A DNA stretch of 64,000 bases from Sphaerotilus mobilis (GTDB lineage Bacteria > Pseudomonadota > Gammaproteobacteria > Burkholderiales > Burkholderiaceae_C), in assembly GCF_004216565.1 (NCBI RefSeq), contig NZ_SGWV01000007.1, positions 62,001-126,000 on the forward strand, in the 5' to 3' direction. Both the position numbers and the translations under genes were made by a program. Under the pieces are notes generated by a model. That model ran no database searches. It was not told where the DNA came from and saw nothing but the letters and a program-made list of their open reading frames with translations. Below are positions 534 to 6,732 of this stretch, piece after piece. Positions within the stretch are counted from its first letter, which is position 1; each line of letters begins with the position of its first letter.

Positions 534-2519
<1,986 letters not shown>

Positions 2520-2548
2520 GGCGACAGATCGATCCAGCGACGGATTGG

Positions 2549-2584
2549 CCACAAAAGACTGGATGTTCATACAGTCTTTTGTGG
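2549..2584. repeat. Perfect 12-bp inverted repeat around the LexA box
   Basis: The arms CCACAAAAGACT (2549-2560) and AGTCTTTTGTGG (2573-2584) are exact reverse complements separated by 12 bases. The LexA-like site lies in the centre and shares its outer CT/AG with the arms. As RNA it would form a stable stem ending 15 bases before the ATG at 2599; as DNA it gives a long symmetric operator. It might also serve as a terminator for the gene ending at 2519, because the right arm contains TTTT. Confidence 0.8.
2559..2574. promoter_or_regulatory. Candidate LexA box
   Basis: CTGGATGTTCATACAG fits CTG-N10-CAG and differs from the common CTGT-N8-ACAG form at one base of the left half-site. It lies 25-40 bases upstream of the ATG of the radical-SAM-like gene, a normal place for an SOS operator. 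lexA itself is encoded 3.4 kb downstream. From memory, the related Pseudomonas aeruginosa gene PA0069 belongs to the LexA regulon, which supports the reading. Confidence 0.72.
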
Positions 2585-2598
2585 CAGACTGACGGCCC

Positions 2599-3837
2599 AT
2601 GAGCCGTGCCTCCCCACGCCGTGTCCAGCGCGCCCCCGGCCGCGTCGCCCCGCAACGTCGACTGCCCAAGGCGGTGCTGCCCGACGCAGTGTTGCCAGAC
2701 GCGGTGCTGCCAGACGCCGTCCAGCCAGAAACCGCCGCCCCCGTTCTTGAGCCGGTCCACGGACCGACGCTCACGCTGTTCGACCCGCTTGAAGCCCACA
2801 CACCGGCCAGCCGCCGACGGGGTCGCCCGCGACGCGCCGAGGGGCTCGACGACCCGGTCGCAGCGACTGGCTTGCGCGAACAGCCCTGGCCGGTCAGCCG
2901 GCGACGGGGCGAAGCCACGGTCGCCAAGGCCGCGGTCGCCCATGCCGCAACCGACGAGCGCCCCGCCGTCGTCATCCCCGAGACCTGCCTGAGCCTGCTG
3001 CGCGCCAACGACCGCCACGAGCTGCCCTGCCCGCTGGTGGCCAATGCCTACCGGACCGAGGACGCGGCGGAGGGCCCCTTGCGCGTCCTCGCCAAGGTCA
3101 ACGCCCCACAGCGTCTGCGCGAGGCCTTGCGCCGACCCGGCCTGGTCGCCCGACCGATCCAGCTCGGCACGCTGGCCGATCCCTACCTGGACGTCGAACG
3201 CGAGCAGCGCCTGACCCGCGCGCTGCTGGAGATCCTGGCCGAGGCGCGCCACCCGGTCGGCCTGCTGACCGCATCTCCCGCCGTGGTGCGCGACCTCGAC
3301 CTGCTGGCCGATCTGGCCAGCCGCCAGCAGGCGCTGGTGCTGATGCGCATCACCCCGGAAGTCTGCCCCTTGGGCCTGGTCGGTGAGCCCGCGACAGCCC
3401 CAGCGGCCCCGGCCGCCGCAAAACGAGGGCGCAAGGCCGCGCCAGTCGTACCAGCCGCACCCGGCGCACCCCAGCGCGACCAACTCGCCGCCAGCCCGTG
3501 GTTGAACTCGCTGGCGCGCCTGGCGGCAGCGGGTGTGCCGGTCGGGGTGGTGCTCGATCTGGCCGCCGATGGCCTCGACACCCGCAGCCTGCTGGCCCCG
3601 GACGGCGATCCCGCCCGTCGCGCGGCCTGGCTGGCGCTGTTCACGCAACTGCGCGCAGCGGGGGCCACGCTCTGGCGCTGCCCGTTGCCGACCGATCGCC
3701 TGGCCGACGCGCTCGCGCTCGGCGACCTGGCGGCGGCGGCCGGCCTGTCCGGCCCATGGCCGACGCTCGACGTGCGGCCGTTCGTGGCGCCCGCTGCGGT
3801 GCTGCCAAGCGGCCCGCGTCAGGTCACCTTGTTCTGA
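2599..3837 (+). CDS. PA0069/SPL-like radical SAM homologue lacking the CxxxCxxC motif (probable pseudoenzyme)
   Basis: A 412-residue protein. Residues from about 130 on resemble the PA0069 family of radical SAM proteins (spore-photoproduct-lyase-like): an NAYR remnant, then LAKVNA, a run reading PIQLGTLADPY, VEREQRLTRALLEILAE, HPVGLLTASP and RDLDLLADLA. In ordinary members the segment after N-x-Y-R carries the CxxxCxxC that binds the 4Fe-4S cluster, followed by about 20 residues. Here that stretch is replaced by a short TEDAAEGP, so no cluster motif remains. The N-terminal 120 residues are low-complexity, with an AVLPD repeat. The frame is intact, codon use is normal and a LexA box lies upstream. 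A non-catalytic role is inferred; no active function is claimed. Confidence 0.62.
   Translation: MSRASPRRVQRAPGRVAPQRRLPKAVLPDAVLPDAVLPDAVQPETAAPVLEPVHGPTLTLFDPLEAHTPASRRRGRPRRAEGLDDPVAATGLREQPWPVSRRRGEATVAKAAVAHAATDERPAVVIPETCLSLLRANDRHELPCPLVANAYRTEDAAEGPLRVLAKVNAPQRLREALRRPGLVARPIQLGTLADPYLDVEREQRLTRALLEILAEARHPVGLLTASPAVVRDLDLLADLASRQQALVLMRITPEVCPLGLVGEPATAPAAPAAAKRGRKAAPVVPAAPGAPQRDQLAASPWLNSLARLAAAGVPVGVVLDLAADGLDTRSLLAPDGDPARRAAWLALFTQLRAAGATLWRCPLPTDRLADALALGDLAAAAGLSGPWPTLDVRPFVAPAAVLPSGPRQVTLF
2671..2730 (+). repeat. 15-bp tandem repeat inside the radical-SAM-like gene
   Basis: Four tandem units of 15 bases (2671-2685, 2686-2700, 2701-2715, 2716-2730), the first being GCGGTGCTGCCCGAC and the last diverged. 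In frame they encode AVLPD three times and then AVQPE. The period is a multiple of three, so gain or loss of units would keep the frame. Confidence 0.85.
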
Positions 3838-3893: not shown

Positions 3894-3906
3894 ACAATTA
3901 GATTGT
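3894..3906. promoter_or_regulatory. Candidate OhrR operator
   Basis: ACAATTAGATTGT is a near-palindrome with ACAAT/ATTGT arms, like the AT-rich OhrR boxes of other bacteria (TACAATT/AATTGTA type). It lies 20 bases upstream of the chosen ohrR start in an AT-rich patch that stands out from the GC-rich surroundings. Autorepression of ohrR and, by read-through, ohr is inferred. Confidence 0.55.
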
Positions 3907-3926
3907 GTGCAATTAAAGTCCAGCGC

Positions 3927-4397
3927 ATGACTTCCGCTGCACCGCTCGCCACCGACCTGCCCTTGCCCGACGACGGCCTGCGGCTGGACCAGCAGCTGTG
4001 TTTTGCGCTGTATTCCGCCTCGCTGGCGATGACCAAGCTCTACCGGCCCCTGCTCGACACGCTGGGCCTGACCTACCCGCAGTACCTCGTCATGCTGGTG
4101 CTGTGGGAACACGGCAGCGTCTCTGTCGGCGAACTGGGCGAACGCCTGAACCTCGATTCCGGGACGCTGACGCCGCTGCTCAAGCGCCTGGAGGGACAAG
4201 GCCGCATCGCCCGCGAACGCAGCGCCAGCGACGAACGCCGCGTCGACGTGAGCCTGACCGACGACGGTCGCGCGCTGCGCGAGCAGGCCCGCGCCATCCC
4301 GCCCCGCATCCTGGAAGGCGCGGGCTGCACCGTCGCCGAGCTGGGATCACTCACCCGCCGGCTGCAGGCCTTGCGGCAGACGCTGCAGGACCGCTGA
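3927..4397 (+). CDS. ohrR: MarR-family organic hydroperoxide sensor-repressor OhrR
   Basis: A 156-residue winged-helix repressor. The segment LDQQLCFALYS contains the conserved peroxide-sensing cysteine (C25). A second cysteine, C134, suggests the two-cysteine type that forms an intersubunit disulfide, as in Xanthomonas. The MarR wing is visible as SASDERRVDVSLTDDG. The ATG at 3927 was chosen over a TTG at 3903 because the latter would place the operator inside the gene. ohr follows 98 bases downstream on the same strand, so repressor and target appear paired. Confidence 0.88.
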   Translation: MTSAAPLATDLPLPDDGLRLDQQLCFALYSASLAMTKLYRPLLDTLGLTYPQYLVMLVLWEHGSVSVGELGERLNLDSGTLTPLLKRLEGQGRIARERSASDERRVDVSLTDDGRALREQARAIPPRILEGAGCTVAELGSLTRRLQALRQTLQDR

Positions 4398-5958: not shown

Positions 5959-5962
5959 GGAA

Positions 5963-5978
5963 CTGGATAAAAATACAT
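5963..5978. promoter_or_regulatory. Candidate LexA box 1 at lexA
   Basis: CTGGATAAAAATACAT matches the CTG-N10-CAG pattern except for the final base. It is followed after 3 bases by a second, better site. Paired LexA boxes in front of lexA are the rule in E. coli and support autoregulation here. Confidence 0.55.
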
Positions 5979-5981
5979 GTA

Positions 5982-5997
5982 CTGGATGAACAGCCAG
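5982..5997. promoter_or_regulatory. Candidate LexA box 2 at lexA
   Basis: CTGGATGAACAGCCAG is an exact CTG-N10-CAG site 45 bases upstream of the GTG start chosen for lexA. Its position inside the longer open frame argues that the ATG at 5977 is not the start. Confidence 0.68.
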
Positions 5998-6042
5998 TGC
6001 CCCGCGTCAGCCGGCGTCGGGCGTCTTGCCGGCGAGGCCGAT

Positions 6043-6732
6043 GTGAACGACAGCCCCAAACTCACCGCGCGACAGCAGCAGGTGCTCGACCTGATCCAGA
6101 GCACCATCGAGCGCACCGGTGCGCCGCCCACCCGGGCCGAGATCGCCGCCGAACTCGGATTCAGGTCCGCCAACGCCGCCGAGGAACACCTGCAGGCACT
6201 GGCCCGCAAGGGCGTCATCGAGCTGCTGGGCGGCACCTCGCGAGGCATCCGTCTGCAGTCTGACACATTGCGTTCGATCCACGAGTCACGCCTGAAGGGC
6301 ATCGGTCAGCAGTTCAATCTGCCCCTGGCCGCGCTGGCCCAGCTCACGTTGCCGCTGGTCGGTCGGGTCGCCGCCGGCCACCCGATCCTGGCCCAGGAAC
6401 ACGTCGACCAGACCTACACCGTCGAAGCCCACCTGTTCGCCCGAAAGCCGGATTTCCTGCTCAAGGTGCGCGGCATGAGCATGCGTGACGCCGGCATCCT
6501 CGACGGCGACCTGCTCGCGGTGCAACGCGCCAACGACGCCAAGAACGGCCAGATCGTCGTGGCCCGGCTTGGTGACGAGGTGACGGTCAAGCGTTTCAAG
6601 CGCAGCAAGTCGGGCATTGAGCTGATCCCCGAGAACCCCGACTTCGACATCATCCACGTCGACGAACAGAGCCCCGAGTTCACGCTCGAGGGCCTGGCCG
6701 TGGGCTTGATCCGAAACACGATGCTGATGTAG
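6043..6732 (+). CDS. lexA: SOS transcriptional repressor LexA
   Basis: A 229-residue repressor from the GTG at 6043. The N-terminal winged helix includes [13 protein letters not shown] and [15 protein letters not shown]. The C-terminal S24 serine-peptidase fold has Ala111-Gly112 as the self-cleavage site (RVAAGHP), Ser146 in GMSM and Lys183 in TVKRF as the catalytic dyad. RecA-stimulated cleavage of this bond would induce the SOS genes. An upstream ATG (5977) would add 22 residues but overlaps the LexA boxes, and the product from GTG has the normal family length. Confidence 0.95.

Follow-up and report, generated by a model that had tools for sequence, protein, structure and literature searches.

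A cysteine-less, LexA-boxed paralogue of the PA0069/SplB-like radical SAM family in Sphaerotilus mobilis, a candidate pseudoenzyme

PA0069 belongs to the LexA regulon of P. aeruginosa. Pseudoenzymes have typically lost their catalytic residues while retaining selection beside an apparently active paralogue. According to the accessible text of the respective papers, SOS control of splB-like genes is predicted for alpha- and beta-Proteobacteria (PMC3323433), LexA-site control of a SplB-like gene is predicted in Bacteroidetes as well (PMC8565304), and a link between SplB and the SOS response is mentioned in PMC3765255. The accessible parts of PMC3323433 and PMC8565304 describe their SOS-regulated splB genes as photolyase or radical SAM repair genes and hold no cluster-less paralogue of splB, and no tested function for the PA0069 branch was found in the literature on SplB-like SOS genes, as far as its text is accessible. 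Our literature search, with subscription papers mostly outside its reach, found nothing linking PA0069 with LexA and nothing joining Leptothrix, radical SAM and LexA; it likewise returned no example of a radical SAM pseudoenzyme by title or abstract start, and nothing under 'degenerate', 'inactive', 'non-catalytic' or 'pseudo' radical SAM.

The locus described here lies in a window of 64,000 nucleotides from Sphaerotilus mobilis, the window being the whole stretch of DNA that was analysed. Like the published SOS-regulated splB genes, it is a SplB-like gene under a predicted LexA site. With the PA0069 family (NCBIfam NF033668), the encoded protein shares common descent, the core at aa 162-252 and the upstream LexA box, but it is without the cluster motif and the TKS lysine, its EPR motif is reduced and its C-terminal part is shorter. 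With SplB (PDB 4FHC and variants), it shares a predicted barrel, a weak structural match and a DNA-repair context, but it does not have the [4Fe-4S] site, and Foldseek matched the two at E about 1e-3. As in pseudoenzymes in general, catalytic residues are lost, selection is kept and an apparently active paralogue is found alongside. SOS regulation being already known, the new part is the maintained cluster-less paralogue.

Coding sequence, lost active site and predicted fold

The gene occupies positions 2599..3837 on the forward strand, begins with ATG and encodes 412 aa with zero internal stops, in agreement with the original prediction of an intact frame. Its open reading frame, profile match, missing motif and selection mark it as a cysteine-less PA0069/SplB-like paralogue at what we call locus B. 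NF033668 matched the protein at E 6.4e-23 and 81.3 bits, below the family cut-off of 360 bits, and the match was confined to aa 162-252, corresponding to profile positions 94-184 of 348; this profile match, together with the tree placement described below, indicates descent from within the PA0069 family. A Pfam scan of the window protein gave nothing at E<=1, and PF04055 matched neither this protein nor its orthologue from Leptothrix discophora. A sequence search against solved structures returned weak matches only (SkfB, E 6.8e-4; NifB, E 0.025) and was set aside. The protein had been proposed, by eye, as a PA0069/SPL-like relative over the barrel region, and this stands for the family profile at aa 162-252, while the structural match is only weak.

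A conserved barrel core, aa 122-260 (2962..3378, forward strand), contains the family match, and 119 of its 139 residues are identical in L. discophora. It is followed by a linker that varies in sequence comparison, aa 261-298 (3379..3492, forward strand), and by the C-terminal part of the barrel with a tail ending in -LF, delimited by alignment and model (3493..3834, forward strand).

Motif searching found no C-x3-C-x2-C in the window protein, and the family CxxxCxxC within NPYRGCEHGC was absent both by motif search and in alignments. At the site of the missing segment and its following loop (aa 150-165; 3046..3093, forward strand), the stretch NPYRGCEHGCIYCYARPTHS..LSPGLDFETRI of normal relatives faces NAYRTEDAAEGPLRV, which leads straight into the next strand, the cysteines and ~20 residues after them being absent. 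This bears out the earlier claim that CxxxCxxC and about 20 following residues are gone. Their proposed replacement by a short acidic stretch holds too, although that stretch is not conserved between the two Cys-less species, L. discophora having VEAAAGDAPGGLRI at this point. Losses beyond the motif, which the original prediction had missed, include the helix after strand 245-251, two C-terminal helices and the lysine of TKS, a residue that contacts SAM in SPL and is replaced in the window protein to give TAS. The EPR motif has shrunk to EP or EG in the Cys-less proteins. From these sequence changes we infer that the window protein probably carries no [4Fe-4S] cluster and performs no radical chemistry.

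An AlphaFold2 model of the window protein was built from 15 sequences, with 14 of the 17 genome-scan loci used; L089-L091 were left out of the structure alignments because they are distant and their starts are unclear or their frame is broken. Mean pLDDT was 71.7, the core at 121-250 being confident, the C-terminal part mostly confident and the tail at aa 1-119 low-confidence with pLDDT mostly <50. Matched by eye, each of the eight strands in the model of a normal relative has a counterpart in the window model. What that relative has and the window model, again by eye, lacks is the cluster loop, one helix following strand 245-251 and two helices at the C-terminus. Foldseek placed a non-radical-SAM aldolase barrel first (E 6.7e-4) and spore photoproduct lyase at ranks 2-5 (E 1.1e-3 to 1.7e-3, TM by target 0.35-0.40); a normal relative modelled alike matched SPL first, at E 8.6e-8 and TM 0.54. 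The strands are kept, and weak SPL matches (E about 1e-3) are mixed with those to other TIM barrels; these weak matches together with the missing helices and loop suggest a fold of which no more than the outline survives, with erosion near the active site. A structural match to the radical SAM barrel was accordingly found only in outline, weakly and behind the aldolase barrel.

Three cysteines, C144, C256 and C361, occur in both Cys-less proteins and in 0 of the 13 other alignment rows. Together with a core under constraint, they would suit a re-tooled enzyme in which these residues and C130 form a new active site that holds metal or performs thiol chemistry. However, the retention of four cysteines at 71% identity is unremarkable, and a single site joining C144, C256 and C361 appears doubtful from the model because C144 precedes its strand and the other two follow theirs; we consider such re-tooling unlikely.

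Two loci in the Leptothrix/Sphaerotilus genus

Across a set of 13 genomes of the genus, which includes Leptothrix discophora CCM 2812, Leptothrix sp. C29, Sphaerotilus hippei, S. sulfidivorans and two MAGs, 13 family copies were found in nine genomes, the remaining four genomes being without any. Nine of these copies lie at locus B and four at locus A; start codons of the relatives were picked by hand. The syntenic marker of locus B is an upstream gene for an ABC-F ATPase, recognised by Pfam and synteny and lying at 534..2519 on the forward strand of the window. The locus-B gene sits directly behind it in six cases (window, L032, L035, L037, L041 and L042) and ~0.8 kb behind it in L039, and no ABC-F gene was present in the stretch fetched around L038 and L040. 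In Sphaerotilus hippei (G003, L095), asparaginase and lexA stand behind the ABC-F gene without the locus-B gene, which is found elsewhere in that genome (L040) and appears from this arrangement to have moved or been rearranged.

The gene is found outside this strain. The orthologue of L. discophora CCM 2812 is 71% identical, equally cysteine-less, flanked by the same neighbours and preceded by the same LexA box. The S. mobilis genome itself also carries a normal locus-A copy, with CEHGCIYC, a PA0069 score of 434 bits, which exceeds the family cut-off, and a LexA box. CxxxCxxC is present in 11 of the 13 genus copies and absent from the remaining two, those of the window and of L. discophora. 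PA0069 scores at locus B descend from 444 bits (L042) through 308 (L039), 272 (L038), 237 (L040) and 196 (L041) to 163 (L035), 157 (L037), 82.5 (L. discophora) and 81.3 (window), and the two locus-A copies measured score 434 and 444 bits. The genomes with a normal locus-A copy are those holding the four lowest-scoring locus-B copies.

A tree of 47 rows, built from all 13 genus copies and 34 of 48 loci from the family and the order, separated the nine locus-B copies from all other rows with support of 100/98, and loci A and B together from the 34 family and order rows with 99/96; the four locus-A copies formed a clade of their own with support of only 84/68. The tree software flagged L037 as a long end branch and both Cys-less rows as atypical in letter composition. 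With the root assumed to lie outside the genus, the grouping of A with B points to a duplication within the Leptothrix/Sphaerotilus genus. The cysteines were probably lost once, in the ancestor of the two Cys-less species.

The PA0069 profile matched 107 of 250 order genomes, 103 of them over the cut-off, and the rows below it, besides the window gene, were partial matches, some apparently split or at contig ends. The window protein matched 198 of 299 family genomes at E<=1e-12, with nothing better than about 1e-24, besides its own gene, among the matches listed. A search for Cys-less relatives with profile A2 (E<=1e-35) in 399 order and 399 family genomes, samples that partly overlap and in which at most four candidates per genome were scored where shown, gave only the gene's own genome among the candidates listed, and a viral contig scan found no relative of the window protein. 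Among the genomes examined, the Cys-less form was seen in two species only; the survey of Burkholderiales for the same loss with a LexA box thus added L. discophora and no third species.

The locus-B gene L041 (4710-5933, G009) reads CEHACVGC, after which the usual loop gives way to a different, longer stretch, apparently remodelling of another kind at that position. PA0069 matches in G355 (C9:108359-110446) and G444 (C7:97359-99446) are split at about profile position 73-80, each inside one long open frame of 703 and 722 aa, respectively, as if an in-frame insert, for example an intein, were lodged at or near the cysteine motif. L057 was rejected as a motif-less copy, the full motif being missing there because its open reading frame begins inside it.

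The LexA box and its surroundings

As had been predicted, a LexA box precedes the open reading frame. The sequence GACTGGATGTTCATACAGTC (2557..2576, forward strand) ranks first in the 64 kb at 26.0 bits on a weight matrix trained on 16 boxes of relatives, those of the window and L. discophora excluded; since the 16 were picked by the CTG-N10-CAG pattern, the matrix leans on that core. The highest score in 30 Markov-simulated 64-kb sequences was 14.8 bits, and the next sites in the window reach 18.3 (before lexA), 13.7 (before a MarR-type gene) and 11.3 bits (before lexA). Bare CTG-N10-CAG occurs 25 times in the window against 31.8 expected, which is not significant, and a strict LexA-like pattern found nothing. 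The 20-nt box is identical upstream of the L. discophora orthologue. Around it lies an inverted repeat with 14-bp arms (2548..2585, no strand assigned; 13-bp arms in L. discophora) that could either lengthen the operator or fold into a weak hairpin. The lexA gene itself follows at 5977..6732 on the forward strand (ORF limits, translation possibly starting further inside), and LexA-like sites lie at 5961 and 5980. The 13.7-bit site, GATTGTGTGCAATTAAAGTC at 3901-3920, stands directly before the MarR-type gene (3927-4397) and is perhaps that regulator's own operator.

Within the genus, 11 of 13 copies have an upstream LexA box with an AT-rich core, and no AT-rich LexA box was found upstream of L038 and L039, both at locus B with cysteines present. 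Such a box also accompanies 11 of the 17 genome-scan loci, six of the 17 being shared with the genus set. Because SOS control of splB-like genes has already been published, the box of the window paralogue is best read as inherited, a kept feature of the family, and the predicted LexA site suggests that the window gene is SOS-controlled. An element TGGCA-(C/G)ACT was observed 3' of the LexA box in the seven boxed locus-B promoters and was not seen in the four locus-A promoters; it is possibly a -10 region.

Selection, rival explanations and a proposed role

A decaying pseudogene, its frame open by chance and aided by GC-rich sequence, would fit the large losses of family motifs and the longest branch of the tree, which is the stem of the Cys-less pair (2.61). 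GC-rich DNA does keep frames open fairly often: 47/500, 22/500 and 19/500 substitution-only neutral simulations stayed open at 0.35, 0.5 and 0.7 changes per site, so the open frame alone is weak evidence and dN/dS is the real evidence. By NG86, dN/dS between the window gene and its L. discophora orthologue is 0.33 (bootstrap 0.26-0.43), not near 1, with 0.34 in the core, 0.28 in the C-terminal part and 0.52 in the linker, where the interval extends up to 1.24; a normal locus-A pair and the ABC-F gene gave 0.27 and 0.22 as controls. Maximum likelihood with codon frequencies gave 0.107 for the whole gene, 0.074 for the core and 0.054 for the C-terminal part, the two controls giving 0.093 and 0.069; dS of the Cys-less pair was saturated, at 2.1 over the whole gene and 3.8 in the C-terminal part. 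Substitutions at codon positions 1/2/3 number 91/77/174, an excess at the third. An alignment built without regard to codons has 10 gaps inside the gene, of which eight have lengths divisible by 3; the remaining two, of 11 and 10, lie side by side and add up to 21. The 10 gap events of the codon-guided alignment, being whole codons by construction, were dropped as evidence. With the 119 identical core residues and the identical LexA box, these results make decay distinctly improbable, and the dN/dS of 0.33 indicates that the protein is kept by selection.

Evolution is faster in the Cys-less pair than in the normal one (NG86 0.33 vs 0.27; tree path 0.52 vs 0.21). The long stem of the Cys-less pair gives way to shorter tips (0.45 and 0.07), a pattern that resembles rapid change with constraint restored afterwards, and if the loss happened once in a common ancestor, which is simplest, constraint would have acted after the loss.

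Family descent and the normal copy in the same genome would be compatible with a protein that is still a radical SAM enzyme, its cluster supplied by a partner chain or some other source. With CxxxCxxC absent, the cluster loop missing, the TKS lysine changed to alanine and EPR reduced to EP or EG, and since in SPL, by the accessible text of PMC3742179, mutation of any one motif cysteine abolishes both cluster and activity, we give this very little credence. A sequencing or assembly error behind the missing segment, in favour of which nothing was found, can practically be dismissed, given a second species with the same loss, in-frame differences around it and graded loss in other locus-B copies.

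The claim that the gene is maintained as a pseudoenzyme and is not decaying therefore agrees with what we found, catalytic residues lost and purifying selection kept, and this reading of the window protein is well supported by sequence comparison. We consider it probable, if some way from certain, that the protein is a pseudoenzyme born by duplication, still selected and damage-induced, that works without catalysis, by binding lesions, as a decoy or as a regulator. An ancestral LexA-controlled PA0069/SplB-like radical SAM gene would have duplicated in the Leptothrix/Sphaerotilus genus, the copy at locus A staying normal and that at locus B, mostly behind the ABC-F gene, diverging stepwise, first in the post-cysteine loop and C-terminal helices and later, in the L. 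discophora lineage, by loss of the cluster cysteines and the TKS lysine. Upon DNA damage, LexA would be cleaved and both the window protein and the normal copy produced; the former would then use what is left of its barrel face, and its basic, AT-hook-like tail, to bind DNA or the normal enzyme, leaving it to act as binder, decoy or regulator.

The tail in question (aa 1-121; 2599..2961, forward strand) is low-confidence in the model, probably disordered, and by its charges basic, with an AT-hook-like RRRGRPRR at aa 72-79 that reads RRRGRPPR in L. discophora. The likeness to an AT-hook was seen by eye, and Pfam found no AT-hook match in either protein. A second RGR motif lies in the linker (KRGRK in the window protein, TRGRPRK in L. 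discophora). The tail has a net charge of +6 and the whole protein +9, vs +1 and +2 in the two normal A copies measured. High charge is not limited to the Cys-less pair, L035 carrying +11 and L037 +9, and RGR stretches also occur in L037 and L040, with RGRG in the two normal A copies.

Homology, loss, A/B grouping, box and purifying selection come from the computations themselves; as to function, we infer that the protein most likely binds DNA or a partner, without catalysis, in the SOS response. More tentatively, the window protein might be an SOS effector free of any cluster: a barrel, induced by damage and binding DNA, that flags lesions for its catalytic sister or competes with it, possibly via the new cysteines. 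SplB-like genes recur in predicted SOS networks, as far as the accessible text of the sources goes, and a paralogue minus the catalytic site, with LexA box and selection retained, would separate the role of the fold, in binding and recognition, from that of the chemistry. The genus thereby offers a natural series of intermediates, leading from the full enzyme to an apparently cluster-free protein.
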